Source of the DNA: Isoperla grammatica
Taxonomy: Eukaryota; Arthropoda; Insecta; Plecoptera; Perlodidae
Direction of reading: 5' to 3'
Length of the DNA stretch: 64,000 nucleotides
Assembly (NCBI GenBank): GCA_945910005.1
Contig: OX246740.1
Coordinates: forward strand, 3,698,897-3,762,896
The notes beneath the pieces are model-generated. The model was not told the DNA's origin. It saw only the letters and a program-made list of their open reading frames with translations, and ran no database searches. Shown one piece after another: positions 8,502-31,484 of the stretch. Positions within the stretch are counted from its first letter, which is position 1; each line of letters starts with the position of its first letter. Made by a program: the position numbers and the translations under genes.

Positions 8502-8564
8502 ATGAAGTTCCAAAACTTAGTGTTTTTGGTGTTGGTAGCACTGTTATCCTGCCATCTACCCGAG
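8502..8564 (+). CDS. Gene 1, exon 1: signal peptide exon (21 codons)
   Basis: The ATG opens 21 codons: MKFQNLVFLV, then LVALLSCHLP and a final E. This is a typical secretory signal peptide with a polar start, a Leu/Val core and a small-residue end. It stops at GAG|GTTAGT, a good donor in phase 0. Joining to the acceptor at 10685..10686 (tctttcttag) keeps the long downstream frame open. Genes 2 and 3 have first exons of exactly the same length and phase, which is the main reason to accept this short exon. The gene 1 frame downstream has no Met start of its own near its 5' end. Confidence 0.78.
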
Positions 8565-9236
8565 GTTAGTTTATTTTACTTAATTTAAATTTTAAATATC
8601 AATAAAGAGTGTTCAATATCGCACGTATGAAAATTAAGATCTGAAATGTTCAGTGTTGAAGTCTTTAATTCAACAATTATCTGACACAAATCTTGACTTT
8701 TTCTCTTATTTTAGAGCAGAAAACCGGCAATATCAAAACCGTGCAGAAGTTCAGTTTTGTAATCATACGTCACAGCATCCGTACAAATCGAAAAGGGAAA
8801 ACTGGGTTCAATTTGGGTTCAAGAGAAATTAATACTAATATATTTGAATCTAATAGTTAGGCTTGTATTTTAGATTTATTTATAACGCAAGCCTCTAGTA
8901 CAAAGAATTACACTGTACTGGAACACGGGACTAATACAGTGAAATAACTGTTATAAATCTCCGGGGCTAAAAGTAAGCTTTAATAATGAAGAAAATGGGA
9001 ATAAATTCTTCGCTCAAAGGTTTATTTCAAATTGATTTTTTGTTTTGTTATAATGTATGCATACGCATACGCATTCGTCTTCATATATGATCAACATAAT
9101 AATGTAGACATATAATTTTAAAGGGTTGAACAGACGAGAGATGTATTATTATTTGCCATTCTTGGGTTCAATCCGTGTATAATAAATTAATATAATAAAA
9201 TGAAAATAATTAAATTATTAGTTTATATTTTTAATA

Positions 9237-9360
9237 ATATGACGTTTCGACGGAATAACATCCAACTTTTTCAAAAAAAATTTTAAACGAAACAAAATTT
9301 CAAGATTGTTAAAAAATTATTTCGAAAAAGTTTGATGTAATTCCGACAAAACGTCATATT
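9237..9360. mobile_element. Small foldback element with gacgtttcg ends
   Basis: The left arm (9237..9278, atatgacgtttcgacggaat) and right arm (9318..9360, attccgacaaaacgtcatat) are imperfect reverse complements around a spacer of about 40 bp. Both arms also contain complementary aactttttc/gaaaaagtt blocks. There is no coding content. Confidence 0.6.
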
Positions 9361-9453
9361 TTTTTAAAACCTTTCTTTAATTACTTTCGTTTTATTTTAT
9401 TTTATTGATTTGTCTTGCTTCAAACATTATACATGGATTGAAACCAAGAATTG

Positions 9454-9481
9454 CAAATAATAATAATTATAATAATAACCA

Positions 9482-9558
<77 letters not shown>

Positions 9559-9580
9559 GTAAAAATAATAATAATAATAA
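9454..9580. repeat. (AAT)n microsatellite
   Basis: This is an interrupted AAT repeat inside intron 1 of gene 1. It abuts a (TTTCA)n run at about 9581..9607 that marks the 3' tail of the antisense LINE remnant. It is probably derived from that tail. The apparent poly-Asn frame across it is an artefact. Confidence 0.85.
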
Positions 9581-10003
9581 TTTCATTTCATTTCATTTCA
9601 TTTCATTTATTTCATTGACACAAAAATACATATACACTCATTTTGGCATAAGACCACCATGAGCACTTTGCTCGCGCGGTGGTTAGCTCACAATGTCATT
9701 AAAACAAATATTTATTTGCTGTGCCGCCGCCTAATAACCATATACATATACACACAACTAAAAACTAAAAACTAAAACATTTAAAATGTAAAACTACAAA
9801 TAGATATTAAAACAACATTTGCATCACTCAATTAAAAAAGTATCTGTTGATTCGATTTGCTTTAAAACATCCCTAGCTTTCATTTTGAAATTACTCAGAG
9901 TCATCCTAGCATTAAAGTCAGGCATTAACTTAACCATTATGTTAAAAAGAGTTGGCCCTCTATATGACAGTTGATTGCGCGCATTTGACATTACAAACTT
10001 TTC
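9581..10003 (-). mobile_element. 5'-truncated non-LTR retrotransposon (LINE) remnant
   Basis: Read on the minus strand, 10000 down to 9824 encodes the C-terminal end of a LINE reverse-transcriptase protein. It reads KFVMSNARNQLSYRGPTLFN, then a stretch containing LMPDFNARMTLSNFKMKARD, then VLKQIESTDTFLIE and a stop. The YRGPxLFN...LSNFKxKxxDVL pattern matches the usual CR1/L2-type C-terminus (yRgPxLWNsLP...slxxFKxxLK). About 240 bp of 3' UTR follow, ending in a (TGAAA)n tail at 9607..9581. The element is 5'-truncated at about 10000 and inserted antisense in the gene 1 intron. The clade assignment is an inference. Confidence 0.7.
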
Positions 10004-10049
10004 ATTACAACATTTTTTCGTTACAAACGTCTCTCTTTTATTATTATAA

Positions 10050-10053
10050 TAAA

Positions 10054-10148
<95 letters not shown>

Positions 10149-10165
10149 TAATAACAATAATAATA
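10050..10165. repeat. (AAT)n microsatellite
   Basis: This is a long AAT run with a few AAC interruptions near its 3' end. It lies in intron 1 of gene 1, just upstream of the LINE remnant in the LINE's own orientation. The poly-Asn and poly-Ile frames across it are artefacts. Confidence 0.9.
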
Positions 10166-10686
10166 AACATAAAATATGGATATATTGAAGCATCATTCGA
10201 GCTAAAGACTTTTGGAAAGATCATTAAAATTTTCATTAGACCGGGTATGTCAAGTGAGGAAAGACACTAATCCCATTTTTACCTTCATATTGCAATGCAT
10301 GACTTTACTATTAGCTTACTTTATCTGGGAAAGAAAAATCCTGAATAGAAACGTGATTTTTGGCTTGGCTTATTACAACAGAAATCAAATAATTATATGC
10401 TAATTTGGCAATATCAACAGCCACTCAACTCAAGGGTGAAAGTGCTAGCAAATAAAATATCACTGTTCCGAAAATAAGTGGAAGTGTAACAAATAAGAGG
10501 GCTGTGACTTTACAGGTTGGAAAAACAATTGGCTGTTAGGTTGTTTCACTGTTTTGTATTTAATTGATTCGCGCTCATTGAATGTTTATCCAAGACAAAA
10601 CACGTTGGAATGACTATTTTTGTATTCCTAACTAATGCTATTGTATACAAGTTATCATTGAAAATATTAATACACATCTTTCTTAG

Positions 10687-13020
10687 TCCAGTCCAGTGGG
10701 GAATGCAGTGGTGCCAACTACTATTGACGACTTTTACTACATTTACTACGATTACGTTGATGATGACGTAGAAGAAGCAATTCATGACAGAGTTGAAAGG
10801 AAAAATGAAGACCAACAACAAGGTTCGAAACCTTTGGATATTCTAAACAGAGACAAACGAGGCAAAGAAGCAAATACCGACACAAAAACATCATCACTTG
10901 ATAAAAATACAACAAAACCAAGTAGTAAGGATGACAAAACACTAAAACCAAACAGTAAGGAAGATAAGACATCCAAGATAAGTGATAAGAACGATAAAAC
11001 ACTAAAGCCAAACAGCAAGGAAGATAAAGCAACAAAGACAAGTGATAAAGATGACAAAACACTAAAGCCAAACAGCAAGGAAAATAAAGCAACAAACACA
11101 AGTGATAAGGATGACAAGGCACTAAAGCCAAACAGCAAGGAAAATAAAGCAACAAACACAAGTGATAAGGATGACAAGGCACTAAAGCCAAACAGCAAGG
11201 AAGATAAAGCAACAAACACAAATGATAAGGATAAGGCACTAAAGCCAAACAGCAAGGAAGATAAGGCACCAAAGGCAAAAAGCAAGGAAGATAAGACACC
11301 AAAACCAAACAGCAAGGAAGATAAAGCAACAAAGACAAATGATAAGGATAAGGCACTTAAGCCAAACAGCAAGGAAGACAAGGCACCAAAGGCAAACAGC
11401 AAGGAAGCTAAAGCACCAAAGGCAAACAGCAAGGAAGATAAAGCACCAAAGGCAAACAGCAAGGAAGATAAAGCAACAAAGGCAAACAGCAAGGAAAGTA
11501 AAGCACCAAAGGCAAACAGCAAAGAAAATAAATCAACAAAGCCAAACAGCAAGGAAGATAAAGCAACAAAGGCAAACAGCAAGGAAGGTAAAGCACCAAA
11601 GGCAAACAGCAAGGAAGGTAAAGCACCAAAGGCAAACAGCAAGGAAGATAAAGCACCAAAGGCAAACAGCAAGGAAGATAAGGCACCAAAGACAAACAGC
11701 AAAGAAGATAAAGCACCAAAGGCAAACAGCAAGGAAAATAAAGCACCAAAGGCAAACAGCAAGGAAGATAAAGCAACAAAGGCAAACAGCAAGGAAGGTA
11801 AAGCACCAAAGGCAAACAGCAAGGAAGCTAAATCAACAAAGCCAAACAGCAAGGAAGATAAAGCAACAAAGGCAAACAGCAAGGAAGGTAAAGCACCAAA
11901 GGCAAACAGCAAGGAAGGTAAAGCACCAAAGGCAAACAGCAAGGAAGCTAAATCAACAAAGCCAAACAGCAAGGAACATAAAGCAACAAAGGGTGTAAAA
12001 GCGCAACCAGAATACTCTTACTATGACGACTACGAGGCACCTGAACAGGGTGAAAGAGACCTTATAGATGTCGTAGAAACTAAAACCACCGCAGCACCCC
12101 CTCCACCTCCCCCTCCACCTCCACCTCCACCTCCACCTCCACCTCCACCTCCACCTCCACCTCCACCTCCACCTCCACCTCCACCTCCACCTCCACCTCC
12201 ACCTCCACCTCCACCTCCACCTCCACCTCCACCTCCACCTCCACCTCCACCTCCACCTCCACCTCCACCTCCACCTCCACCTCCACCTCCACCTCCACCT
12301 CCACCTCCACCTCCACCTCCACCGCCACCGCCACCGCCACCGCCACCGCCACCGCCACCTCCACCTCCACCTCCACCTCCACCTGCCCGTTTAAGAAGAA
12401 TCAAACCTCCAAATGGCCGGAACGTCCCAGAAGACTATATTAACGACGAAGATGCTCTCGGATTGGGTGAAAGGGAAGACATCGCGAATCCAGGAGTTCT
12501 GAGAGGGGCACCTCGTCGGTACCAACCTCCTCGTCCGTGGGCTAGAAGACCCCAGGATATCCAGGAAGACTACATCAACGACGAAGATGCTCTCGGATTG
12601 GGTGAAAGGGAAGACAACGTGAATCCAGGAGTTCTGCGAGGGGCACCTCGTCGGTACCAACCTCCTCGTCCGTGGGCTAGAAGACCCCAGGACATCCAGG
12701 AAGACTACATCAACGACGAAGATGCTCTCGGATTGGGCGAACTGGACGACGAGTATCCAAGGGTTCTGGGAGGGGCACGTCGACCGTACAGACCTCAACG
12801 CGCTGGACTCCGACGGACGACGGGCGCCCCACGCGGCCCGGTCGTCAACTACTTGCCCATAGCCCTGAGCATCGATTGTGGAGGAAAAGAAGAAACGGAG
12901 ATCACAACGACGACGGGTCGACCACCGAGGAGGAGGCCACTGAGACGCCGGACCACCCGTCGTCCTCTGCGACGGAGGGTAACCACCACTCAGCGGACAC
13001 CATTCATTGATGTTTATTAG
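10687..13020 (+). CDS. Gene 1, exon 2: secreted Lys-rich repeat / poly-proline pro-protein (798 aa with exon 1)
   Basis: The exon starts after tctttcttag in phase 0 (SSPVGNAVVPTTIDD), since a TAG lies just upstream. Order by residue of the joined protein: signal peptide 1-21; acidic Tyr-rich pro-segment with DDFYYIYYDYVDDDVEE; furin-type site RDKR ending at 79; about 36 units of a decapeptide such as KANSKEDKAP (about 93-458); a linker with YSYYDDYEAPEQGERD; 96 uninterrupted prolines (492-587); three 45-aa units starting EDYINDEDALGLGE from 603; then YLPIALSIDCGG with the only mature Cys at 752; and an Arg/Thr tail. It shares architecture with gene 2 and the C-block with gene 3. The Lys-rich mature part beside an acidic pro-piece suggests an extracellular matrix or adhesive role, but no known family is recognised. 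Confidence 0.87.
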   Translation, partial: SSPVGNAVVPTTIDDFYYIYYDYVDDDVEEAIHDRVERKNEDQQQGSKPLDILNRDKRGKEANTDTKTSSLDKNTTKPSSKDDKTLKPNSKEDKTSKISDKNDKTLKPNSKEDKATKTSDKDDKTLKPNSKENKATNTSDKDDKALKPNSKENKATNTSDKDDKALKPNSKEDKATNTNDKDKALKPNSKEDKAPKAKSKEDKTPKPNSKEDKATKTNDKDKALKPNSKEDKAPKANSKEAKAPKANSKEDKAPKANSKEDKATKANSKESKAPKANSKENKSTKPNSKEDKATKANSKEGKAPKANSKEGKAPKANSKEDKAPKANSKEDKAPKTNSKEDKAPKANSKENKAPKANSKEDKATKANSKEGKAPKANSKEAKSTKPNSKEDKATKANSKEGKAPKANSKEGKAPKANSKEAKSTKPNSKEHKATKGVKAQPEYSYYDDYEAPEQGERDLIDVVETKTTAAPPPPPPPPPPPPPPPPPPPPPPPPPPPPPPPPPPPPPPPPPPPPPPPPPPPPPPPPPPPPPPPPPPPPPPPPPPPPPPPPPPPPPPPPPPPPPPPPARLRRIKPPNGRNVPEDYINDEDALGLGEREDIANPGVLRGAPRRYQPPRPWARRPQDIQEDYINDEDALGLGEREDNVNPGVLRGAPRRYQPPRPWARRPQDIQEDYINDEDALGLGELDDEYPRVLGGARRPYRPQRAGLRRTTGAPRGPVVNYLPIALSIDCGGKEETEITTTTGRPPRRRPLRRRTTRRPLRRRVTTTQRTPFIDVY
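10910..11997 (+). repeat. 30-bp coding tandem repeat (decapeptide), 60-bp higher order at the 5' end
   Basis: The unit is like aaggcaaacagcaaggaaga plus 10 nt, giving KANSKEDKAP. The first part alternates two related decapeptides, PNSKEDKATK and TSDKDDKTLK, as a 60-bp unit. From about 11380 the array is homogenised to nearly identical 30-bp units. The 30-bp period is a multiple of three and lacks stops, so other frames stay open as shadows. Confidence 0.92.
12097..12384 (+). repeat. (CCACCT)n coding microsatellite, 96 prolines
   Basis: An in-frame run of 288 nt encodes proline only. It is mostly the hexamer CCACCT, with a short CCACCG island at about 12321..12357. The minus-strand poly-Gly and Glu-Val frames here are shadows. 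Confidence 0.95.
12430..12760 (+). repeat. 135-bp coding tandem repeat, about 2.5 units
   Basis: Units begin at 12430, 12565 and 12700, exactly 135 bp (45 aa) apart. Each starts EDYINDEDALGLGE. The first two continue with GVLRGAPRRYQPPRPWARRP; the third diverges after GLGE. Confidence 0.93.
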
Positions 13021-16000
13021 AAACGGTCATTGTGATGATCACTTGTAAGTAAAAATCAGGGGCGGACTGGGAAAAAAATCTAGGCCGGGCAAAATTTTGG
13101 TCAGGCCAGGCACGGGGGGGTTTGGGGGCTGTGGCCCCCCTTCAACAGCGCCGCAGGTGACATTTTTTTAAATGAGGTTTTCAGAAGGCATTTTGGTGCG
13201 TTTTATAAAAAACATAGCAGGCTGAATGCACTACCGAAATACTGTAGTTTTCGACGGTTAAAAGTAGAAAAACACCAGCAATAAGATTGGAACACTGTCT
13301 AACGACTGATGAAAATGAGATCACGTTACACCAAAATCGAACGAATCTTACAATGTTATTTAAACCTTGCAATATCGTGAAGGAAGGGGTGGGAGGGACT
13401 CGTATTTAAAGAAATTTAAATTTCAAACTTGCACATGTAAGCCCATTGATTTTTGAGTATAATATAGACAATACAAAGCGAAAGTTTATCGGGAAATCTA
13501 TATCTCCTTAACAGTAACACATAGTTGTTATACATAATAGGTACAGAATATAAAATTGTCAGCAAGAACTAACATTGTTCTGTGGGAGGGACTGCAGCGC
13601 ACACCAATATCCGATTGTTATTAGTAGATTAGTGTTTTCTTCACTCACAGGTACACGGTGGGCAGCGCTGCCAGCGCCGCAACTTCCCGCTGTCACCAGG
13701 CAGTTTAGTTTATGCCTGTTCCAGTGCTGACCAGGCCAAATTTGGGCCAAAACAGGCAGGCCACCGGGCTTCAATGTGGATTGACCATGGTCTAAAGTGT
13801 AGGTTAGGTTTAGTCCTAGCAATTTAGGGGAGTTAGTTCGAGTGATGCTTTCCATTTAGTCAAAAAAGAGGGCTATATTTGGGAGTGTTAAGGGGCGAGT
13901 GTTGACAGGGGGGGGGGGGGAGTTAAAGGAAAAGTACGTATTTTGTGCTAACGATAATATGTTTAAGAGGCTGCGATGGCAGTAGTTCTACACAAATACC
14001 TGGGAAGAATGTTTATCAGCTAGTGGAGGAAAGGCTGTGGCAAAAAATCCAGTACAGTCTTCAAGGGTAAGCAAGATCCCGTGACCACCAACATAATGTT
14101 AGTTTCAGCTCTTTCTACGTCTGTTTAAACTTGAATTTTAATCGTTGGTTAAAATTTGGATCAGGGATGACACAATTAAAATCTCAAGTCAAACTAGTTC
14201 ATACCACACAGCAGAAGCACAAACAAGCTGGCAGGCCTACTAGCTAAATGGTACGCACCATATTTTAGTTACCAAACAAATTTCCGTCGGGTTCAAGTGC
14301 ATGAAAAGAATTATAAATTTCAGTCAGAACTTGACTTTCTATTTGTTAGTGTTCCACAACAAATAGTTATAGAGTTTTTGGGTCTTAGATGTATTTGCAA
14401 ACTATCTCCGTGAAAATATTTTCTAAGTACGGGCTCACAGAAATGTCAACAATAGTGAATAGAATCTGCTAACTAGTGCCAAAGCTTTCCAGTTGACATG
14501 CTACTCAAGTTAGCCACATTTATGATTGTGAAAGTAGAGTAAAGTACTGTTAAGTTTTAAGAATTGTTATTTACTATAAGCACAAACTGAATTGTAGTAA
14601 AATATAGTACATGGTCCGATGAGGGAATCACTAGATTAAATTGCCTTTAGAAATGTTGGTGCTCTAAGATTGTAAAGCTACACCACTAGAGCTAAAAGTA
14701 GAGTACACAATGAATTGGACCGAGCTGACACTGTTACGATGCAGCTTAGTTCCTGATAATAGATTTCAACAGAGCTCTCGAAATACTGAGGTATCGAGTT
14801 TGTTCTAAATATCCTAATGACGTCCATTTATGTAAGCTAGTAAAGCGGTCTAGTGAAACTCCATGGATATGAATGTAATGTCTTTTAGGTGAACAAATGC
14901 TTGCCCACATTGTGCCTCGTAAATCTTTGAGAGATACTTGTATACAGCTTAATGTCTTGACGGAGAGAGGTATACATCTTCTACAAATAGTTTCTTTTAT
15001 GGGTCGATGCAGACAAATTCTGAAATGCACCAGTTCACAAAGTAAGGTGAGGATTTTTATGTTGAATGTGTAAAAGGGCAGTATCGAGGTATATTTTACT
15101 AATTATTAATTCGACTTCAATATTATTTTACAAATAAGGACTGAATGTTTAGGAAAGATTACCTACATCTGCTTGAAGGGTAACATGCATGCATGTTTAA
15201 GCAAGGACAATGTCATGGTCAGCTTATAAGCGTTTCATTTTTTCGCCGTTGCTGTATGAGATTCATGTACAGTTAGTTTTGATTGTGAAATAACATAAAA
15301 ACCATTTGTTCTTTATATATTACTTTACAATCATAATTATTGTTGTTGCCAAGTTCACTACATTTTAACTTAATTTATTCCAGGTTTAAAATGTAATGGA
15401 TTTTAAGAATAAAACTTTACTAGTACAAACTAGTTATCAACGATCAACGTAAAAAATCAAGTATTGTACTTTATATTGATTTGTAATATGTGGAAACTGA
15501 ATAAAACAATGGAAATGAATTGAATTGAGTTATCATATAATGCACTCACTACCATTTTCCTTCAGCATCATGCCAATAAAACAAACCAGTTCCATTTCCG
15601 ATTAACCCCCATCGTAACATCCTGAATATTTCAACGTCACATGTCATCTTACTTGTAACTATATTCAACACAGGTAGCTTGATAACCAAAGATACTTGGA
15701 TACTTGGACGCATTGGTTCGTGTATTTAAAACAACATTTTGAATCATAATTTTGGGATTATAGTGGGCTAGTTATTACACCACGTCTACAGATAATATTC
15801 CAAAAACGATGTTCGCTGATTTGAATGCGTGGCGCTAAAGTCAGTTCAATGCAAACCAGGAAATGTGCACGTGTATTAACTATTGTATATTATAAAACAA
15901 CCTCAGTGTGTGTGATTGTCACCAAACCAATAATTTTTTAATTGTTTTAAATTACTATCGTTTAACCTAATAATTATTAATATCCGCCCTTGTTGTTACA

Positions 16001-16439: not shown

Positions 16440-16578
16440 GGAATTCATAGTCGGCCCCTACACCTAAGGGCACCCATTGTTGCTATGGATTTGTCTTGTT
16501 TATGGGAAATAACATGGAAACAACTGTAACCTTGGCAACAATGGGCGCCCCTAGGTGTAGGGGCCGACTATGAATTCC
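16440..16578. mobile_element. Foldback element with 44-bp arms
   Basis: The left arm 16440..16483 begins ggaattcatagtcggcccct and the right arm 16535..16578 ends ggggccgactatgaattcc. The arms are reverse complements over 44 bp with two mismatches, around a 51-bp spacer. It has no coding content. It sits directly upstream of the gene 2-derived pseudogene and may mark a duplication or insertion boundary. Confidence 0.8.
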
Positions 16579-16625
16579 ATTATCTTGAATCTTGAGTCCG
16601 TACTTTTCACACGTTCGTCCCCCCC

Positions 16626-16842
16626 CTACAACTGCTCGCCCAAGAGAACAACCACCGCCATGCCCAGACGTAGAAGACTGCGACCCGGCCGCCGTCGGAG
16701 TACGACCACGCCAATACCGCTCTTTGACGTCAAATATATCCGTCGGAGTACGACCACGCCAATACCGCTCTTTGACGTCAAATATATCCGTCGGAGTACG
16801 ACCACGCCAATACCGCTCGTTGACGTCAAATATATCGGCTGA
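16626..16842 (+). pseudogene. Truncated copy of the gene 2 C-terminal end
   Basis: The open frame reads CSPKRTTTAMPRRRRLRPG, then RRRSTTTPIPLFDVKYI and two more copies of the last 16 residues, ending VDVKYIG and TGA. It is near-identical to gene 2's tail (SPRRRTTTAKPRRRRLRPG, then TTTPIPLVDIKYIGC). Differences are triplication of a 48-bp unit beginning at about 16692, 16740 and 16788, and loss of the terminal Cys. Nothing of the signal exon, pro-segment or poly-Pro region is present, and no acceptor precedes it. Part of gene 2's 3' flank is also conserved at 17159..17295, so this came from a DNA-level duplication. It is probably non-functional. Confidence 0.85.
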
Positions 16843-17120: not shown

Positions 17121-17158
17121 AAACTTGTATAATCTCCACAATATTGAGGTAAATGTTC

Positions 17159-20026: not shown

Positions 20027-20089
20027 ATGAATGGTAGACATGTAATATTCAACCTACTTGTAGGTACTTTATTAGGACTTTACATAGAG
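20027..20089 (+). CDS. Gene 2, exon 1: signal peptide exon (21 codons)
   Basis: The ATG opens 21 codons: MNGRHVIFNL, LVGTLLGLYI and a final E, then GAG|GTAAGT, a consensus donor in phase 0. Basic start plus hydrophobic core fits a signal peptide. The length (63 nt), phase and final GAG match gene 1 exon 1. An in-frame ATG at 20012 would add MIQCV; I prefer 20027 because it reproduces the 63-nt length of the paralogs. The donor joins in frame to the acceptor at 22873..22874. Confidence 0.72.
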
Positions 20090-22874
20090 GTAAGTCTACA
20101 TTTACATACACTTATTTCAAGGGTCGAGACGGAGTTTCTAAATAATATTTGTGATCATTTTAAAATTATGTGTTATATTATTATGTAAGCTAATAGGTAT
20201 GTGTCCCAAACGAGTAGATCCTAGTTTACAGATTGCAATCATTGGCTGGGTGGTGGGGGGGGGGGGGGGGGGGCTGAGGATGGGCACTTCCAGTACTCGA
20301 GTGAGGGGGAAACGTCCCAAAATCGTGGAGATAGTTATGTATGTGGGTTCATGACTTGGGGATTAGAAACTATATACCGGAAAAGACCTGCAAATACAGT
20401 TCCATTCACTTATAAATTAACACTATATATAGTGTCTGCGGCATCAAAGCGTGAGAATGTGATGGTTTATATTCATATATTTGACAACTTAAAATATTTA
20501 AAATTGTGGGTAGATACCGTAGCTAAATATTATCAAGGTCAACAGATAATGAAACAAAATATATTATGCAAAATCATTTTTTTTTCATTAAATCCAATAA
20601 TTGAGATAGTATTGTATTATCAGATTTTATCCAACCTGATTTTTGCACATTTTTTCCGTTGTTGTTATAGACGTCGATAATATCTATCTGTGATATATAC
20701 TTACAATTTCGATTGTAGAAGTCGTTTTTAAGATTCGAACAGAAAATCGTAATACTCAAGATTTTCTGCCTAAGACTCTAATCATGTTTATAGCGATTTT
20801 CTGTTTGATTTACTTACTATATGTAATATTGAATCGCGTTGCTGTTGTGAAAACCAACCGAGCTTTACTCTTGTACAAGGACTCGCCATAATAAATAGTG
20901 AGAATATAAATTATATTAGCACAAAGCTTAAAGCCTGCACTTTCGTTATATGAATGTAATAAAAGTTTGATATACATATGGATAACAACTTTTTAGCTTC
21001 TACGGATATTGATTTCTCATTTTGTATTGCCGATTATTTTGAGTTATATGATCGCCAAGTTAGCAAGTTCATGCAAGAACTCATAGTACGATAAATTTGG
21101 CAATTATTTACTTGATTGCAAATGTAAATCGAAATCAATGCAATCTTCTTTTAGTTTCATTTGTAGATTCCAACCTTACATTTTATCAAATATCACTTCT
21201 TTCATGAACTTTCATGAACATGAACTTCTTCAATGATCTACAATCGACTAGGATTTTTAAAAATATTATTAATTGTTGATCAGAACCTCACCCCAGTGTA
21301 TCCGCTCACGCACGTTACAAAGCCAAATGAAGCAACGTCATATATATTTATACTGCATTCCGAAAACTGTGATACGCGATAGCAAACTAACTTCACACGT
21401 GGTCAATCAGTACTGCTCCAGCTTCTGGCTGTCAATAAAAGACAAGTGTATAAGTACACGTGCTCAATCAGTACTGCTCCAGCTACTGGCTGTCAATAAA
21501 AGGCAAGTCTATAGGCACACGTGCTCAATCAGTACTGCTCCAGCTACTTGCTGTCAATAAAAGGCAAGTGTAAAGGCACACGTGCTCAATCAGTACTGCT
21601 CCAGCTACTTGCTGTCAATAAAAGGCAAGTGTAAAGGCACACGTGCTCAATCAGTACTGCTCCAGCTACTTGCTGTCAATAAGAGGCAAGAGTATAGGCA
21701 CACGTGCTCAATCAGTACTGCTCCAGCTACTTTCTGTCAATAACAGGCAAGAGTATAGGCACACGTGCTCAATCAGTATACTTCTCCAGCTACTTGCTGT
21801 CAATAAAAGGCAAGTGTAAAGGCACACGTGCTCAATCAGTACTGCTCCAGCTACTTACTGTCAATAACAGGCAAGAGTATAGGCACACGTGCTCAATCAG
21901 TACTTCTCCAGCTACTTGCTGTCAATAAAAGGCAAGTGTAAAGGCACACGTGCTCAATCAGTATTGCTCCAGCTACTGGCTATACTGGCTGTCAATTAAT
22001 GCAAGTGTTTATAGGCAAATTGGAGATAGCAGAACTGGATGTTTTATTTTTAAACGTAATTATAGTAAAAAGTAATTGTAACATTTTTATGGTAGATGTT
22101 CATACCAAAATATAAATTTTGAACGTACCGCGGTACGCTTAGGTCAATGCAGGTATTACATTATGCGTTTGCTTATATCAAGGGGGCGCTTGCACAACAA
22201 CGACAGGACATTTAACAGGGTCAATATACTCCATTAAATTTTTAAGAAAGAAATGGCAGGCGTAAACCTCCCATCTATCCGCGCCGGGAACGTTTTTAAA
22301 ATTAAAAACTTATTAAGCAATTAAACGCCGTTAAAATAGCTCAATAATTTAATTAATTAGGGCACAATGACACTTTATTAAAGAAAATAGTTTGATATAC
22401 ATTCATTCATAAGTCAACTTCTTGTGATCAACTTATCTTCTGGTTACACAGAAGTATTTTGACAAAGTTGTTTCCAGTGAAGCCAATGTGAAAGATTATT
22501 AAAAATATATCGTGTTATGAAACGTACAAATGATCAAAACATGGAGAGGGCAAATCACAAGAAACCCCCAACTGTACTGTTAACCCAGCTAACTATGGAT
22601 CTCTAAAGAATCCTCGCCCAGGTCAGATGACGAAATTACTAGTTCCTAGTGGGAACAAAGATGAAACGCGTAATTCAATAATTGGTATTTAGTATTTGTT
22701 CTCAGATATGAGCCGGGTTTCACAGGAGGTAGAAAGTGAGATTGGACTAAGAGTTAAGACCAGAAATGGACTTCGAATCTCTTGTGAATCCCCCGTATAT
22801 ATTTATATATTAGATTGTTTATGGTAAAACACCACCAAAGGAAACATCCAATACTAACACACGTTCTCTCTCAG
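20090..22874 (+). other. Gene 2 intron 1 (2,785 bp, phase 0)
   Basis: The intron runs from gtaagt to the pyrimidine-rich acceptor gttctctctcag. It contains a 19-bp G tract (20255..20273) and the 61-bp tandem array at about 21400. Short frames at 20351..20680 and 21273..21560 are not supported as exons. Confidence 0.68.
21400..22015. repeat. 61-bp minisatellite, about 10 units
   Basis: The unit starts gctcaatcagtactgctcca and continues with gctacttgctgtcaataaaa and ggcaagtgtaaaggcacacg. Units start near 21400 and then about every 61 bp. The first and last are diverged, and one has a 2-bp insertion. It lies in the gene 2 intron. The Ser/Gln-like frames over it are repeat artefacts. Confidence 0.92.
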
Positions 22875-24287
22875 TCAGGATATCAAGCCTCGGTGGTGAA
22901 CGCAGCTTTGCCCGGCGACTACAACGACTACTATGACTACGTTTACTACGATTTCGTTGACACAGATGAAGATTCAACTGGAGGCAGAACTCAGCTTGGA
23001 TACCAACATCAAACTGAGGGAGATAATGACCATACACAAATTTCAGCGAAAGCGCAGACAATTAATGACAAACAAACGTCATTGGTTCTTAAAAGAGTGA
23101 AACGGGCGAAAGAAACAGATCCTAGTACAACAACAACGAAAGAACCCAAAACCCCTAAACCAAGTAGCAAAGAAGTGAACGGAACAACTACTCCCAAGCC
23201 AACCAAAACCCCCAAACCAAGTAGCAAAGAAGTGAACGGAACAACTACTCCCAAGCCAACCAAAACCCCCAAACCAAGTAGCAAAGAAGTGAACGGAACA
23301 ACTACTCCCAAGCCAACCAAATCCACCAAACTAAGTAGCAAAGAAGTAAAGGCATCGGGCACGTCCACAACCTCACCGACAACAGCAAGTTCACCGGTTG
23401 GCGGAGAAACAGCCCCAACAGCCACAACAACCCCAACAACCATATCACCAGACTACAATTATGATTATTATGACTATCAGCAACCTGATCAAGGTGTCAG
23501 AGATCCCATAGAAGCAACCCCATCGCCACAAGAACCAAGCACCACTCCCCCGCCTCCACCACCACCACCACCACCACCACCACCACCACCACCACCACCA
23601 CCACCACCACCACCACCACCACCACCTCCACCTCCACCTCCACCTCCACCTCCACCTCCACCTCCACCTCCACCTCCACCTCCACCTCCACCTCCACCTC
23701 CACCTCCACCTCCACCTCCACCTCCACCTCCACCTCAACCTCCACCTCCACCTCCACCTCCACCTCCACCTCCACCTCCACCTCCACCTCCGCCTCCACC
23801 TCCACCTCCACCTCCACCTCCACCACCACCTCCACCTCCACCACCACTATCCTCTACGCCTCGCTCCCCAGGCCCACGTATCAGAGTGGCCGGCACGCGT
23901 CCTCCCAACCCCAAAAATCCCGACTACATCTATGACGACGACGCCTTGGGTTTAGGTGAGTACGACCCAGTTCCTGTAGCCCCGGACAATCCTGGAGCTC
24001 CGTACAATCCTAGAGCTCCGTACAATCCTGGAGCTCCGTACAATCCTGCAGACCCCTATCGCCTCTACAGTCCAGGGAGGAGACGAACAACACGTGCTGC
24101 CCCGGTGTACAACTACATGCCGATAGCCTTGAACGTCGGGGGCTGCGACAAGGACACCACTACTGCTCGCTCGCCCAGGAGGAGAACGACCACCGCCAAG
24201 CCCAGACGTAGAAGACTGCGACCCGGCCGCCGTCGGAGGACAACCACGCCAATACCGCTCGTCGACATCAAATATATCGGCTGCTAA
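22875..24287 (+). CDS. Gene 2, exon 2: secreted Thr/Lys-repeat / poly-proline pro-protein (491 aa with exon 1)
   Basis: The acceptor gttctctctcag|tca gga tat is in phase 0. Order by residue of the joined protein: signal 1-21; acidic Tyr-rich pro-segment with DYNDYYDYVYYDFVDTDED; furin-type site RVKR ending at 98; a 19-aa repeat TPKPSSKEVNGTTTPKPTK in about 3.5 copies; Thr-rich linker; DYNYDYYDYQQPDQGVRD; proline tract 246-345 (63 P, one Q, 36 P); DYIYDDDALGLGE from 371; APYNPG hexapeptides; YMPIALNVGGCDK with Cys445; and a basic tail RRRRLRPG...TTTPIPL ending in Cys491. It matches gene 1 block for block, though the repeats differ. The frame continues upstream of 22875 to a Met at 22821, but that stretch lacks a signal peptide and is read as intron. 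The likely role is extracellular structural; it is not a known family. Confidence 0.86.
   Translation, partial: SGYQASVVNAALPGDYNDYYDYVYYDFVDTDEDSTGGRTQLGYQHQTEGDNDHTQISAKAQTINDKQTSLVLKRVKRAKETDPSTTTTKEPKTPKPSSKEVNGTTTPKPTKTPKPSSKEVNGTTTPKPTKTPKPSSKEVNGTTTPKPTKSTKLSSKEVKASGTSTTSPTTASSPVGGETAPTATTTPTTISPDYNYDYYDYQQPDQGVRDPIEATPSPQEPSTTPPPPPPPPPPPPPPPPPPPPPPPPPPPPPPPPPPPPPPPPPPPPPPPPPPPPPPPPPPPPPPPQPPPPPPPPPPPPPPPPPPPPPPPPPPPPPPPPPPPPLSSTPRSPGPRIRVAGTRPPNPKNPDYIYDDDALGLGEYDPVPVAPDNPGAPYNPRAPYNPGAPYNPADPYRLYSPGRRRTTRAAPVYNYMPIALNVGGCDKDTTTARSPRRRTTTAKPRRRRLRPGRRRRTTTPIPLVDIKYIGC
23148..23350 (+). repeat. 57-bp coding tandem repeat
   Basis: Three near-identical 57-bp units (ccaagtagcaaagaagtgaa and onward) start at 23160, 23217 and 23274. 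A diverged fourth (ctaagtagc) starts near 23331. They encode PSSKEVNGTTTPKPTKTPK. Confidence 0.93.
23547..23846 (+). repeat. CCA/CCT coding microsatellite, 63 Pro + Gln + 36 Pro
   Basis: A 300-nt in-frame tract. It begins as pure (CCA)n, then becomes the CCTCCA hexamer, with one CAA (Gln) at 23736..23738. The minus-strand Trp/Arg and Glu/Val frames are shadows. Confidence 0.95.
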
Positions 24288-24460: not shown

Positions 24461-24710
24461 GTTGCGATTTTCTGAGGATTGTGGCCGCGAATAATGTACT
24501 AACGAAGGAGGCACTGACTTACCGCGACTAGACTGACTTGAATTGATTGACTTGACAATTGCGGCTACGAAGCTCGAGCTGCACATCGTCGAGTGAGGGC
24601 CTCTGAGGATGGGAGATGTGACTTTCCCGAAACGTCAGGAAGAGAAGGGCAAGTCAGTGCCTCCTTCTTTAGTACATTATTCGCGGCAACAATCCCCAGA
24701 AAATTGCAAC
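24461..24710. mobile_element. Foldback element with 60-bp arms beside TA/CA microsatellites
   Basis: The left arm 24461..24520 begins gttgcgattttctgaggatt. The right arm 24651..24710 ends aatccccagaaaattgcaac. Inner arm ends are ggcactgactt and aagtcagtgcc. The spacer includes ttcccgaaacgtcagg. (CA)n(TA)n runs flank both sides. Like the elements at 1012 and 9237 it carries a gaaacgt/acgtttc core, so these may be one family. Confidence 0.75.
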
Positions 24711-25089
24711 AGGTACACATATGTCCGTGAAAACTTGAGAACTTATATATATATATATATATACACACACTAGTGAAGTGATACATATACAGTGAGGTGC
24801 GGGACATGTCAGCAATTGTCAAAAAGGCATGGCCCTACAGTGGAGAATAAGAGAGCCAATAGAAATAAATTTGAATGGTAAGATTAAAACATTCTTTCAA
24901 ATCAAATACATTTACTCATTATACCGGAATCGAAAATCGAGGTGAAGACCCCTGGAACCAAACAAAAATTATAATAGCAATCAAAACTAATATAAAATTG
25001 GACCATCATAAATATTGCTGTTCGCGCCAAGTATTTAAATACATTTCCGTTTCCCCTCATTTTAGTATCTTCTCCTAGCTCTTCACCTT

Positions 25090-25440
25090 CAACCCCCGAT
25101 TCACTGTCAGAGTGCTGTCGACCGGGCTTATCTCGGTCTCTCTCGCCGTTGAACGCTCACGGACTGCACATCGGCGAGTCTGCGTGTCTCCACACTTTTC
25201 GTGTTTCGTTGCCCTCGTATTCGAGACGAGGGCAAAAGTGTTTACTTCGCCATTTTCACAGTGTTTCTTTTTTATTTGTATTTCTTCACGTTACTTTACT
25301 TATTAACTGTGCATACGTGTTTTTTTGTGTTAATTTTCAATCATTCTTCAACCGCGACTAAACTTCAACCATCTTCGTCCACCACGGCCTCTCCGCAACC
25401 ACCATCTTCGAGCTACCGGAAACTAAGCAAGGTAAGACAG
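25090..25440 (+). other. Pyrimidine-rich, relatively GC-rich segment with a donor-like end
   Basis: The stretch is unusually rich in ctcggtctctctcgcc and related motifs. It ends at aaactaagcaag|gtaagac, a good splice-donor match. Overlapping short frames in all three plus-strand registers give no recognisable protein. It precedes a LINE C-terminal remnant, so it could be that element's 5' region or a non-coding first exon. Confidence 0.3.
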
Positions 25441-25584
25441 TGAAATCGGTCCTTTCCTCACCTCCTATCTTGACCAGTCCGTTTTCCCCCTCATTCCCCC
25501 TCTTTTTTCTTGCCTCGTTCGCAACATTGCAATTTCACAAAGGGACGAAGGGTTCTGTTTTACCAACCTCGGACGTGCACCTCT

Positions 25585-26065
25585 GCCTACCAACGCTAAT
25601 TCTTTTACCGTGCAACATTGCTATGGAATACTCTACCGAGCTCCATGAAAACTTTAAAATAAGATAACATTAGAAGTACACTAAAGACCCACTTGTTAAA
25701 AACATAAACTCACTAACATTATTATTTTACATATCTTACTGTAATGTACCTTATAGTACTATGCGTATTTTAATATTATATTTGGTCAAACACCAAGCAA
25801 CAGATAAATGCTTCAACCAACTTTTCTCCATTCTAACACTTACTTTCGTGTCTTCCTAACCTTACACACTGAACTGATACCTGTATAGAAGCTTGGCAAT
25901 GACTTATGGCATGTTAGGTAAATCAAATTGTACGAAAATACTAAATGTTATATAATTTAAAGTACGCCTATGCTAGTCTCAAGTATTATAATGTACTATT
26001 CATGTATTATAGTCACATCTAAAGTTTACTAATGTTAATGACAATAAGCAAAGCAACAATAAATA
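25585..26065 (+). mobile_element. Decayed non-LTR retrotransposon (LINE) 3' end
   Basis: In one frame with internal stops the plus strand reads SAYQR, stop, FFYRATLLWNTLPSSMKTLK, stop, DNIRSTLKTHLLKT, stop (25707). YRAxLLWNTLPSS...STLKTHLL is the standard C-terminal signature of CR1/L2-type LINE proteins. The following about 350 bp would be 3' UTR, ending near caataaataaatg (about 26058). The nonsense codons show that it is dead. Confidence 0.65.
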
Positions 26066-27961
26066 AATGTAATCTAATGAGTCATTAATACAGGTGATAG
26101 GCCCAAAGTGGTACGAAATATGCTCTGTTGGCTACCTCCTTTAATATTCACTTAACGCTTGTTGTATTTTAATACTGTCAATATATAACTTCCACCTCTC
26201 TTTGCAACCGAATGTATCAACTTTCGTGTATAAAAATTATTTTCAAGGCATTCGACACAGTCACATAAACAATAAACCACCTTATTCCGGCCAACTAAAG
26301 CAACGAATATTAATATTCCAAACACTTCCGATTCAGACCCCATGACAACAAGTCGGACTAATAAGACAATTGAGACTCAATTTGACTTCGCCGCCCCGCA
26401 CCATAATCATAGGTTGCACGTACGTCACATCTTTGCGCGTGGCGGTCACATATGCGATCAAACTTTGACGTTGCCATGGAGAAACAATTGAAGGCTGTTG
26501 TGGTAGAACACATAAATGCTCAGTTCTTTAAAATCCAGCCTGTTTTTTGAATAAAATTGGTAAAAGTGGTATTTTTAATTGTTTTATTCCTTATTTTTAC
26601 TTTTAAATTCTATAAGGCTTATTTATTAAATTTGTATAATATTTGCTAATGATCTAGGATTGGTCTTTCTCAATTGTGTCGCAATCATGGCCGCTGTGAC
26701 GTCACGTGGGAACTATGAATACCACATGATGTATACGGGACAGAAGTCGGAGCACGCACCACTGTGATATGACCTCATAGTCACTTTGCAAATACTTGAC
26801 GTAGGTTAGGCGATACGTCGGTGGACAGTCCAATCCCTAGCGCTTTTTATCATCTCTACGTGGATATTTCAAAAACACATAGTAATCCAATATAAACACA
26901 TTATTGGCCTACACCAGGAAGATAGGAGTGATCCAGGTTCTGTCATGCAGTAGTGGACTAACCAGCTGCCCCGCACCTCCCTTCTATACTCACAATAAAG
27001 CCAACGTCTACGCGGACACGCCGAAACCAGCAGTGCCTGCAAGGTTAGTCAGGTCCACAAGACAGTGAGGAAGCCAGCTGGTGTTATCGTGCTGTAAAGT
27101 CTTGGAATATGACAACGCCCAGTTACGACTGGTAAACTGAAAGGTAGGTGGGGATAACCGTAAAAGTACAAATATGTCATATAAAATTATGTGTTTTAAT
27201 ATATATATATATTTTATATATACGTTTTTTTATTATGTTGGTTGCAAAACATATTAAAAGAAAACATTTTTTTTTTCAAACGTAATTTTTGATTTACCGT
27301 GAAAATGTTTTTCATATCATATAGATATGATATTTTAGATTTTGTTTGTTGCAAAATGTTTTACAAGGAAACATCTTTACGGAAAACCAATTCTTTACTT
27401 TTATTTTTAAAAATTCAACGTTTAAACCGAAGTATAGAGTGGTCTTTTTCAGGATGTATAAACAGCAACATCACATTACAAAAGGTAAATATAAGGAAGT
27501 CAAAAAAACTGAAATGTTGATTGAAACAAACATTCATAAAAAAGAGCAGTACATTATTTACAGGATGACATATTTTGACACATTTGGGACGGTTTAAACA
27601 CATTTAAAAGCAATTTATACAGACTGAAATCGGAAGTTTCGCAGACAAGGTGAAGTTGGGCGGCAAAAGACTACAACAGTTTATACTTGCAAATCCCAAG
27701 AAAATGACAGGTGGTCAACATTTGATTTGGCTAGATCGTAACCACACGTCCGTCCAAGTGTACTCCAGACAGCCGTCATTACTCCTTGAGGGGTTTGTAT
27801 GACCACATCATACTAATCTGCAATGGATTGAGCGTGAACTGGCTAAAAGTCATTTCCAGGGATTTTCATTGACAATCGAATAACTAAGTATTATACCGTT
27901 GAGTATATAGTCTAAAGGTAAATGCAAAACGCCAGCAGCTGTTTGACAAACGTTTCGTACA
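26066..27961. other. Intergenic sequence with dispersed-repeat pieces
   Basis: At 26684..26735 a segment with ctgtgacgtcacgtgggaac and ctatgaat recurs inverted at about 63160..63212. Around 27235..27400 (tgttggttgcaaaac and tttgttgcaaaatg) are diverged copies of the end of the foldback at 1012..1406. No gene was recognised. Confidence 0.45.
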
Positions 27962-28106
27962 GTCAACATACGCGAGTCGACTAGTAGCAGAATGTAGGCA
28001 CACGCTGCGCGATGACATCGAATCATAAGCGTAGCATCGTTGATCATAACCTTTGTCACTGCGCATGCTCTATAATTCTGCTACTAGCCGACTAGCATAT
28101 GTTGAC
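27962..28106. mobile_element. Foldback element with 32-bp arms
   Basis: The left arm 27962..27993 begins gtcaacatacgcgagtcgac. The right arm 28074..28106 ends ccgactagcatatgttgac. They are reverse complements with about three mismatches over 32 bp. The 80-bp interior is non-coding. No clear target duplication was seen. Confidence 0.6.
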
Positions 28107-28388
28107 CGGTAGACGGAGAGCCACTAGCGTTGCATCTATCTACCTTACACTCTTTACTCGACGCTTCTACATTACACTCATTACCTGTGAGGCACGAGCA
28201 CGGTTTAATAAAACCTACCTTCATGTATTTTTGATCGCTTTTCTTTGTAATAAATCTATGACAGCATTATTTAAAGTGAATATACGGTGATATTAAAAAA
28301 AAAATATTCTCCAATGGCTATTCAAATTCACTTGCAGTTTCGGTAGGAGTGTTTCCGCGCGTGTCCAAACAATTCTGTTTCATATTAC

Positions 28389-28444
28389 TAGTGGTTAAAG
28401 CAACCCATTATCTTGGAGACCCGTGTTCAATTCTCAGCTCTGGT
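28389..28444 (+). mobile_element. tRNA-like fragment, possible SINE head
   Basis: tagtggttaaagcaaccc resembles an A box region and gtgttcaattctc resembles a B box, about 34 bp apart. The acceptor stem is not preserved. Confidence 0.45.
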
Positions 28445-28746
28445 TTTATTGTTATATCTGAACGAGTAAGGGAGTGAGTTGCGAGTAGTAGATTGTCATC
28501 GTGATTTCATGTCAACGTGATGTTTTTCACACAATGCACGCAACGTAATAAAATGTACTCGTTTATTAGGACTTTCATACACGTTCCTAATTATTGTTAT
28601 TGTTCTTAGCACGGTCCAATTTGGTGCGTGTCTTCACTTTAAATCGCAATTCTTTCTATTACTGGTGTGTGTAGTTTAATCTTACAAATTACAATAGCCG
28701 GTGGATAACAACAAGTACTGGTTTCCCAACTTCGGTTTGTAGAATG

Positions 28747-28753
28747 TTATATT
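28747..28753 (+). promoter_or_regulatory. Candidate TATA box of gene 3
   Basis: gTTATATTg lies about 73 bp upstream of the gene 3 ATG. It is weaker than the candidates in genes 1 and 2, and is proposed only by analogy. Confidence 0.25.
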
Positions 28754-28820
28754 GCGCTGTTCATGGAAGTGTCACACTTGCTGGCCAGTATACAACGGCT
28801 TAGGTACTAAAGTGGTGGCA

Positions 28821-28883
28821 ATGAGAAGCACAATGGTGCAATGTTTGGTTCTACTTACATCGCTTTTCGGTCATGCTGTCATG
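28821..28883 (+). CDS. Gene 3, exon 1: signal peptide exon (21 codons)
   Basis: The ATG opens 21 codons: MRSTMVQCLV, LLTSLFGHAV and a final M, followed by ATG|GTGAGT, a strong donor in phase 0. The sequence is a typical signal peptide. The exon length and phase are identical to genes 1 and 2, which supports both the start choice and the grouping of the three genes. It joins in frame to the acceptor aattatttcag at 29461..29471. Confidence 0.8.
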
Positions 28884-29471
28884 GTGAGTGATTTTTGTAA
28901 TTTTTAATATTTTTTATATTTGATTGTTATAATACATACAAACTCGGTCAAAACCGGAAGTCCAAAAAAACATACAATAGACAACAAATATAGAATGAAA
29001 ATAAGCCCGAATGCTTACGTTAGCTGAGCAGGGTTGGATATCTCAATCGTAGTAGTATGATTAGTTGGATATCATAAATGAACTTTCACACATTATTATC
29101 TAAGTAGTAAATAAACAACGTCATCCAATTATTGACCCAGCAAAACCGTCATTCTTTTATGTAGCTCTCTATTCATACATACCTCATCATGCACAGCCAT
29201 CATATACAGCTGTTCATATCGTCATCGTCATCGTCATCGACATCGTCATCCCCATCGTCATCCCCATCGTCATCATCATCACTATATTAGAACAATAATT
29301 TAATTCACACCTATTTCATTCAGGAATATCTCAATCAGATTTCCATTTCCACTGACACAAGCTTCACTATCCTAGTCTTCAATTTTTCTTATTGTAGCAA
29401 ATAAGCCTTAAACTATTTCAACATGGAAAAATCGAAATCACAACTTCTAATATAAATATCAATTATTTCAG
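28884..29471 (+). other. Gene 3 intron 1 (588 bp, phase 0)
   Basis: The intron runs from gtgagt to tatttcag. It contains an interrupted CATCGT/CATCCC microsatellite at about 29219..29280. Nothing else was recognised. Confidence 0.75.
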
Positions 29472-31484
29472 GCAATGAATCAAAACAATGAGGACGTTGT
29501 CTCAAAGCTGGAATTCGATGCTATAGCGCATGAAGACATAAACCCTTATAACGCCAATGGGGTAGGTGACATAATAAAAACGCTTTCGTCTACGCGTTTA
29601 TTGTCAAATGTAAGGAATAAAAGACAAGTTCCGTACACAGAGACTACAATCGACACTACCACTACCGCAACCACTACTCCCGAAACTGCAACGACAGTGA
29701 CTACTGTTGAATCGCCCCCGAGTACTACACCTTTGGAAACTACGTCGACCACAGTAGACACTACCACTACCACGACCACAACCACTTCTCCCGAAACGGC
29801 AACGACAGCGACTACTGTAGAAACCTCCCCGAGTACTTCACCTTTGGAAACTACGTCGACCACAGTAGACACTACCACTACCACGACCACAACCACTTCT
29901 CCCGAAACTGCAACGACAGCGACTACTGTAGAAACCTCCCCGAGTACTTCACCTTTGGAAACTACGTCGACCACAGTAGACACTACCACTACCACGACCA
30001 CAACCACTACTCCCGAAACTGCAACGACAGCGACTACTGTAGAAACCTCCCCGAGTACTTCACCTTTGGAAACTACGTCGACCACAGTAGACACTACCAC
30101 TACCACGACCACAACCACTACTCCCGAAACTGCAACGACAGCGACTACTGTAGAAACCTCCCCGAGTACTTCACCTTTGGAAACTACGTCGACAACAGTA
30201 GCTCCAGAGACCGCGACCACAATTGGTCCAACCACAATTTCCAGTGTTACAACAGCTTCTGACGCTACTACCACTCCTACCACTATCAGCTCTCAAACTA
30301 CTGCACAACCAACTACTCAAATAAGCCCTGAAACAACACCACTTTCCACCACACCAGCAACTGAAACAACACCATTCTCCGCCACACCAGCAACTGAAAC
30401 AACACCATTCTCCACCACACCAGCAACTGAAACAACTACAGCAACCGAAACAACACCATTCTCCGCCACACCAGAAACTGAAACAACTACAACAACTGAA
30501 ACAACACCATTCTCCGCCACACCAGCAACCGAAACAACTGCACTTTATCCGGACTATGATTATCCTATACAAAATGCACGAACAGATACACCAAGTACAA
30601 AAGGAACTATTGAAACCCCGGCAAACACAGACTATCCTGACTACTATATTGACCAAAATGCACGAACAGATACACCAAGTACAATAGCAACATTTGTTAC
30701 TCCGGCAAACACAGACTATCCTGATTACTATATTGACCAAAATGCACGAACAGATACACCTAGTACAATAGCAACATTTGAAACTCCGGCAAACACAGAC
30801 TATCCTGACTACTATATTGACCAAAATGCACGAACAGATACACCTAGTACAATAGCAACATTTGAAACTCCGGCAAACACAGATTATCCTGACTACTATA
30901 TTGACCAAAATGCACGAACAGATACACCAAGTACAATAGCAACATTTGTAACTCCGGCAAACACAGCAAACACAAATGAACCACCAACAAACCCAGCAAA
31001 AATCACAAATACAGACTCCCCTAACGACTATCCTGACTTTCCTGATGACTATGCATACGATCCTGACTATCCCGATTTAAAAAGTACAACGAATACAACG
31101 CAACCCGAAAAACAATCCCAGGTTGAATTAATGCCAACAAATACGACCACAGATAATCCAAAACCAGAAGTGTCTACCCTTCCCGACGAAGAACCAGTAT
31201 ACAGAGGACCTGTCCCCAGAATACCTGCAAAGGGTCTGAAGAAACCCACCAGAAACCCAGAAATCCTGTTCGACGAAGGGGTCCTAGGCATGAGCGAGAA
31301 GGAGTTCTTTGCTCTGTTCCATCCAGACGGACTACCAGACAACTTTTACGAGGTGCCTCCTATCATCAATATCATGCCGATCGAACTGAACATAACGTGC
31401 GGCAAGAAGGGACTGAAAGGACTTAACTGTGGGAAACCAGCGAAGAGGAGGAGGACTACTTTGGCACCGAGAAGATGGATCTAG
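29472..31484 (+). CDS. Gene 3, exon 2: secreted Thr-rich mucin-like pro-protein (691 aa with exon 1)
   Basis: The acceptor aattatttcag|gca atg aat is in phase 0. Order by residue of the joined protein: signal 1-21; acidic pro-segment; furin-type site RNKR ending at 72; Thr/Ser block about 78-378 with 37-aa units containing SPETATTATTVETSPSTSPL, then TETTPFSATPA units; five 28-aa units with DYPDYYIDQNARTDTPSTIA; a Pro/Asp/Tyr linker; ILFDEGVLGMSEKE, a diverged version of the DEDALGLGE motif of genes 1 and 2; INIMPIELNITCGKKG with Cys664 and Cys674; and a basic tail KRRRTTLAPRRW. The dense Thr/Ser block should be heavily O-glycosylated. There is no poly-Pro. The C-block and exon structure tie it to genes 1 and 2. 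It is likely a mucus or matrix component. Confidence 0.87.
   Translation, partial: AMNQNNEDVVSKLEFDAIAHEDINPYNANGVGDIIKTLSSTRLLSNVRNKRQVPYTETTIDTTTTATTTPETATTVTTVESPPSTTPLETTSTTVDTTTTTTTTTSPETATTATTVETSPSTSPLETTSTTVDTTTTTTTTTSPETATTATTVETSPSTSPLETTSTTVDTTTTTTTTTTPETATTATTVETSPSTSPLETTSTTVDTTTTTTTTTTPETATTATTVETSPSTSPLETTSTTVAPETATTIGPTTISSVTTASDATTTPTTISSQTTAQPTTQISPETTPLSTTPATETTPFSATPATETTPFSTTPATETTTATETTPFSATPETETTTTTETTPFSATPATETTALYPDYDYPIQNARTDTPSTKGTIETPANTDYPDYYIDQNARTDTPSTIATFVTPANTDYPDYYIDQNARTDTPSTIATFETPANTDYPDYYIDQNARTDTPSTIATFETPANTDYPDYYIDQNARTDTPSTIATFVTPANTANTNEPPTNPAKITNTDSPNDYPDFPDDYAYDPDYPDLKSTTNTTQPEKQSQVELMPTNTTTDNPKPEVSTLPDEEPVYRGPVPRIPAKGLKKPTRNPEILFDEGVLGMSEKEFFALFHPDGLPDNFYEVPPIINIMPIELNITCGKKGLKGLNCGKPAKRRRTTLAPRRWI
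29754..30197 (+). repeat. 111-bp coding tandem repeat, four near-identical units plus one diverged
   Basis: The marker gtagacactaccactaccac occurs at 29754, 29865, 29976 and 30087, exactly 111 bp (37 aa) apart. A diverged unit lies upstream at about 29645..29753. The minus-strand Val-rich frame is a shadow. Confidence 0.95.
30570..30989 (+). repeat. 84-bp coding tandem repeat, five units
   Basis: The marker caaaatgcacgaacagatac occurs at 30570, 30654, 30738, 30822 and 30906, exactly 84 bp (28 aa) apart. Each unit carries a DYPDYYIDQNARTDTPST-type sequence. The first unit is diverged. Confidence 0.95.

Follow-up and report, generated by a model that had tools for sequence, protein, structure and literature searches.

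In Drosophila, the glue genes Sgs1, Sgs3, Sgs7, Sgs8 and Eig71Ee have, in the available parts of two studies, a short first exon that contains part of the signal sequence and is followed by a single intron (PMC6352337, PMC10835880). The second exon of Sgs1 and Sgs3 carries Pro/Thr/Ser-rich repeats, the motif and number of which turn over quickly, and the same parts describe a short conserved C-terminal part, clustering and duplications for the Sgs genes (PMC6352337, PMC10835880). The Sgs intron is described there as a phase-1 intron that splits the signal peptide at residue 10 (PMC10835880). Here we describe a stretch of 64,000 nucleotides from the genome of Isoperla grammatica (the window; C8:3698897-3762896 within an 874-Mb assembly), which contains a cluster of three genes, A, B and C, with a common exon plan. 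Together with B', a fourth member on another contig, and a gene fragment, D, they form a real, small insect gene family of modular design. We propose, with a probability of roughly 55%, that the family encodes secreted, furin-processed proteins with a structural or adhesive role, such as a glue, a coating or a silk-like secretion, acting by a mechanism that we infer below.

The genes A, B and C are located in the window as follows.

8502..8564, forward strand: gene A exon 1, 21 codons for a signal-like peptide; 63 nt, open, donor GTTAGT, phase 0, hydropathy 3.2
10687..13020, forward strand: gene A exon 2, 777 codons and a stop, without Met
20027..20089, forward strand: gene B exon 1, 21 codons for a signal-like peptide; 63 nt, donor GTAAGT; exon 1 of B' (C5) is also 63 nt, with no indel
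22875..24287, forward strand: gene B exon 2, 470 codons and a stop; matched by B' on C5 in three pieces at 88-94%
28821..28883, forward strand: gene C exon 1, 21 codons for a signal-like peptide; 63 nt, donor GTGAGT, hydropathy 2.2; without a second copy for comparison
29472..31484, forward strand: gene C exon 2, 670 codons and a stop; C-terminal part single-copy in the searches made

The gene models, rebuilt from the window, give proteins of 798 aa (A), 491 aa (B) and 691 aa (C). In each of them a phase-0 GT-AG intron of 2122, 2785 and 588 nt, respectively, separates the 63-nt first exon from one large second exon, and no internal stop is present. The two-exon plan of the initial annotation is exact for all three genes, and its observation of a three-gene cluster with a common exon plan is confirmed. 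The pattern of an ATG, 20 sense codons and GTNAG[TG] occurs exactly three times on the two strands of the window, namely in the first exons of A, B and C. It was found five more times in 60 kb of C8 flanking sequence and 109.9 kb around B' (partly masked), one of these matches being B'. The pattern by itself is not rare enough to be decisive, with about 1.5 chance matches expected per 64 kb. The signal peptide in the family proteins was judged from hydropathy alone: the best 11-residue value is 2.2-3.2 in the exon 1 peptides of the family versus -0.2 to 1.25 in the four background matches. The 777 codons of the second exon of A include no Met, and the second Met of B is residue 436. Full translation from an ATG in these Met-poor second exons is impossible, and therefore A and B need an upstream exon. 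For gene C, in which a Met is present at residue 23, the support for exon 1 comes from the splice pattern and hydropathy.

The second exon of gene A encodes, in order, an acidic Tyr-rich pro-segment, an RDKR site, Lys-rich NSKE repeats, a Tyr/Asp linker, a polyproline stretch of 96 residues, three DEDALGLGE units and a C-terminal block (C-block). In gene B the order is an acidic Tyr-rich pro-segment, an RVKR site, SSKEVNGTTTPK repeats, a Tyr/Asp linker, a polyproline-type stretch of 100 residues, a DDDALGLGE unit and the C-block. Gene C encodes a pro-segment, an RNKR site, Thr-rich repeats of 37 aa, YPDYYIDQNARTDTPST repeats, an LGMSE unit and the C-block, and its longest proline run is 2. All members share the C-block, which contains one or two Cys and has an Arg/Thr tail. 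Within their first 150 residues, the three proteins each contain a single R-x-K-R (A 76-79, B 95-98, C 69-72), in agreement with the furin-like site noted initially. The region between the signal and the C-block contains 28 NSKE repeats in A, three SSKEVNGTTTPKPTK in B, and the Thr-rich and YPDYYIDQNARTDTPST repeats in C; each paralog has different repeats, in agreement with the initial annotation. The net charge of the whole precursors, from residue counts, is +42 for A, +15 for B, +22 for B' and -52 for C. A contains 29 S-x-E sites (shuffled mean 3.3, maximum 10) and B' five (mean 0.6, maximum 4). Tyr residues with at least three acidic neighbours occur in the A/B pro-segments and linkers and in the YPDY repeats of C (18/22 and 13/19). 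The family proteins are probably disordered; in a model of the B C-block built from four sequences no structure was seen, with a predicted local distance difference test score (pLDDT) of 53 and a predicted template modelling score (pTM) of 0.10.

Shuffled controls separate the parts of the proteins that are related from those that are not. The N-terminal pro-segments of A and B are homologous (0/500 shuffles reach the score), and so are the C-terminal parts in each of the pairs A-B, A-C and B-C (0/500 each). For the last 120 residues, the score was reached by 0/2000 shuffles for A-C and 1/2000 for B-C. The pro-segment of C has no detectable relation to those of A and B, with 423/500 and 485/500 shuffles as good. 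The acidic pro-segment ascribed at first to all three genes is therefore shared by A and B (net charge -7 and -5) and not by C (net charge -1), whereas the C-block ascribed to all three is borne out. The Tyr/Asp linker is common to A and B (0/1000 shuffles, the compared pieces including seven prolines each), and the YPDY repeats of C show no significant relation to the linkers of A and B (76/1000 and 451/1000 shuffles). By their sequences, A and B are thus clearly homologous, and gene C is tied to them through the C-terminal part only. The C-terminal homology and the exon plan support the single family of secreted low-complexity pro-proteins put forward in the initial annotation.

The fourth member, B', lies at 29.636-29.640 Mb of C5. 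It is intact: its exon 1 is 63 nt long, the donor is GTAAGT and the acceptor TTTCAG, the intron has 2646 nt, and the 565 aa are free of stops. The upstream TATA-like stretch TATATATAGGCTCA is identical in B and B'. Identity between the two genes rises from 0.75 in the 5' flank to 0.79 in exon 1 and 0.86 in the 3' intron part, reaches 0.936 and 0.953 in the portions of exon 2 that lie outside the polyproline, and falls to 0.45 in the 200 nt past the stop. The exon 2 indels outside the polyproline are 3, 54 and 57 nt long, all of them multiples of three; elsewhere, this holds for 0/4 indels in the 5' flank, 2/3 in the intron part and 1/4 in the 3' flank. In a neutral simulation with substitutions alone (2000 runs), the frame remained open in 22%, 6% and 2% of the runs at a divergence of 0.03, 0.06 and 0.075, respectively. 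Outside the polyproline, which was left out of the codon analysis as it is not alignable codon by codon, the synonymous divergence (dS) is 0.103 and the nonsynonymous divergence (dN) 0.065, giving a dN/dS ratio (omega) of 0.63 from 25 synonymous and 51 nonsynonymous changes. The dS is 0.46 in exon 1, on 14.5 sites, and 0.07-0.08 in exon 2, well below the flank divergence. B and B' thus show signs of coding constraint.

The remaining related sequence is fragment D, situated between A and B.

16634..16842, forward strand: fragment D, the 3' end of a B/B'-like gene; the last 48 bp are present three times, and it ends in TGA (by eye)

It is 95.5% identical to B' over 110 columns, and the protein match is 86% over 36 aa. 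About 55 bp 5' of it, at 16440-16579 of the window, lies a short element with inverted arms of about 48 bp, which by eye resembles a small inverted-repeat transposable element.

Further members were sought in the genome. Exon 2 of B matched itself, fragment D, B' in three pieces, A in two pieces and one locus on C16, the last ascribed to polyproline, and missed C. The C-terminal part of A matched itself, a reverse-strand open reading frame (ORF) over its own locus and, weakly, a repeat region of C5 (12 matches, E 0.15-9.7), missing B and C; the C-terminal part of C matched itself only. Because known relatives were missed, the negatives of these protein searches carry little weight. When the whole genome was scanned with a degenerate DNA pattern for the C-block core, 20 exact matches were obtained, and a backward control gave one. 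Four of the 20 are A, B, B' and C, and the other 16 lie in ORFs of 10-95 aa without context, so that this genome-wide pattern, which changed cores would escape, reveals no fifth member. No further members were seen either when ORFs of at least 110 aa were inspected by eye in the unmasked parts of the flanks, which covered 30 kb to the left and right on C8 and about 50 kb to the left and right on C5. More distant family members in the genome are possible.

The cluster belongs to an insect. The mitochondrial contig (C603, 16,163 nt) carries COX1 and has, on its reverse strand, the order I-Q-M-nad2-W-C-Y-cox1-L2-cox2-K-D-atp6-cox3-G-nad3-A-R-N-S1-E-F-nad5-H-nad4-nad4L-T-P-nad6-cob-S2-nad1-L1-V, which we take to be the pancrustacean ground order; of the 24 tRNA predictions, two were discarded as probably false, one for an additional Lys within nad1 and one for an additional Asn close to the I gene, and the order is that of the genes located, which do not include atp8 and the rRNA genes. 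The odorant-receptor family PF02949 has 122 matches in the genome and none in 14 control genomes, a weak control in that those named are prokaryotes. Odorant-receptor numbers of such size mean a winged insect. By both observations, the genome belongs to a winged insect. The mollusc and shell setting given initially is wrong, and the mitochondrial order and the insect odorant receptors rule out mollusc shell-matrix or mucus proteins. The genome contains 26 COX1-family matches, 25 of them outside the mitochondrial contig (for example C20:25.37 Mb and C1:81.9 Mb); 21 of the 25 have an in-frame TGA and resemble nuclear copies of mitochondrial DNA.

Among insect genes, the Drosophila Sgs glue genes are the nearest design, and the present family may work like them. 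With Sgs1, Sgs3, Sgs7 and Sgs8, as far as the available parts of the two studies describe them, it shares the signal sequence and two coding exons (the repeats being in the second exon of the long Sgs members), the repeat turnover, the conserved C-terminal part, the clustered duplicated genes and the insect origin. It is not a member of Sgs, because in all four members the intron follows codon 21 in phase 0, in contrast to phase 1 at residue 10, and because the C-terminal motif IRXC[L/V]C is present in 0/4 family proteins. The R-x-K-R sites, long polyproline, Lys/SKE repeats and Arg/Thr C-block are features of the family described here. Sgs4, Sgs5 and Sgs5bis (the PCXXXXK family) are likewise secreted glue proteins, some with repeats, in the part available (PMC10835880). 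They differ from the present family in the PCXXXXK C-terminal motif, found in 0/4 family proteins, and in having no intron (Sgs4) or two introns (Sgs5 and Sgs5bis) (PMC10835880).

The initial annotation recognised no named family, and within the scope given here nothing was found in Pfam, PDB or 5.8 billion predicted proteins. In Pfam, exon 2 of A reached 17.4 bits (cut-off 23.7) and that of C 12 bits (cut-off 27), B gave no match, nothing exceeded the cut-off, and the best E for the C-blocks was 0.18. In PDB, no relative of gene C exon 2 was found, and the sole match to the C-block profile, a TFIID subunit with E 1.1, was taken as chance. The predicted proteins were queried, accepting E up to 10, with the C-terminal parts of B and C and the C-block alignment, and not with gene A alone. 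No match was obtained for the C-terminal part of C among 85 candidates, for that of B among 7984 candidates sharing most words, or for the four-member C-block alignment among 7960 candidates, these being restricted to about the length of its first row, 127 residues, and full-length relatives therefore out of reach. The orphan status of the family is provisional, as it depends on the insect coverage of the protein collection. Literature searches found no paper on furin sites in glue or polyproline proteins, nothing relevant on sulfated tyrosines in silk or mucin of insects, and none on stick-insect egg glue.

We propose that the signal peptide would be removed in the endoplasmic reticulum and that furin-type cleavage would then free the mature chain from the pro-segment. 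Judging from composition, the Thr/Ser residues would be O-glycosylated, the Ser-Lys-Glu sites of the S-x-E type phosphorylated, the Tyr/Asp linkers sulfated, and the chains cross-linked by disulfides through the Cys of the C-block. The polyproline stretches of about 100 residues in A and B would serve as stiff spacers, and the oppositely charged members would associate into a structural or adhesive material. By their composition, the proteins may be structural. Caddisfly silk and sandcastle-worm cement are serine-phosphorylated secreted materials. These secreted repeat proteins resemble the present family in having repeated Ser near acidic residues, together with basic residues; they differ in that phosphorylation is only predicted here. 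In a more elaborate and rather unlikely version, the cluster would be a self-contained linked kit for an electrostatically assembled secretion. A and B would be polycations with phosphorylatable Ser-Lys-Glu and polyproline rods and C a glycosylated polyanion, the furin-removable pro-segments would keep all three inert, the common C-terminal block would dock and cross-link them, and the material would be tuned by exchanging the repeats and retaining the block.

Several observations weigh against a secreted structural or adhesive material. B' has no R-x-K-R, RVER standing in its place. S-x-E sites are not in excess in C (three, shuffled mean 3.1), and the four in B (mean 0.7) are inside the shuffled range (maximum 5). 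The omega of 0.63 indicates mild constraint, and gene conversion could be the source of the high exon 2 identity of B and B', copies that lie on different contigs. The C-block model, built from four sequences and of low confidence, gives weak evidence of disorder. The proposed modifications (phosphorylation, sulfation and glycosylation), the cross-linking and the assembly by charge are predicted from composition, and the gene models, expression and secretion are predicted from sequence.

The same proteins could tentatively be seen as mucin-like lining, salivary or gut proteins, whose extended glycosylated chains would hydrate or protect a surface and would be neither load-bearing nor adhesive. 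The Thr-rich repeats of C, with 70% Pro/Thr/Ser and a net charge of -32, and the absence of any domain above the cut-off would fit, but the main repeats of A are Lys-rich, with a net charge of +46 and 26% Pro/Thr/Ser, so that this explanation is more apt for C than for A or B. A role as seminal, spermatophore or egg-coat proteins, which are known to evolve fast, would account for the differing repeats of the paralogs, the omega of B and B' and the absent homologs; however, no sequence feature points to reproductive tissue, and we consider such a role unlikely. It is very improbable that the long ORFs are no real genes and arose merely as simple repeats expanded. A (CCTCCA)n microsatellite does encode the polyproline, and the repeats are open in other frames too, on the opposite strand as well. 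Yet the non-repetitive ends are conserved among A, B and C, the coding identity of B and B' exceeds that of their flanks and introns, their frame is kept through all three indels, and their splice sites are conserved. The family, whose modular design is unusual, is ordinary in kind, as fast-evolving secreted repeat proteins are, and new in detail.

The sequence around the family contains several other features. The window has a 73-bp tandem array at 34433-36257 (25 copies, 95% alike), a 61-bp array of 9.6 copies within the intron of gene B (21394-21981) and further arrays at 39287-39450 and 62648-62838. To the left of the window, at 3693037-3695129 of C8, overlapping minus-strand ORFs contain the WPPPALTDSAPVFHIQHVPLYDVI tandem repeat without a C-block and are probably satellite. 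By eye, a LIM-domain-like ORF lies at 3769812-3770247 of C8, about 7 kb past the right window end, and ORFs resembling a ligand-gated chloride channel lie at 29.610-29.616 Mb of C5, about 20 kb from B'.

If secreted together, the proteins would make up a new set of structural or adhesive proteins in insects. Across the paralogs the repeats vary, whereas the signal exon, the C-terminal block and, in three of the four members, the furin site are retained. The family would be a second insect case, beside the Sgs glue genes, in which to ask where repeat proteins are under constraint, and A and B versus C would provide a defined pair of positive and negative proteins for assembly in vitro.

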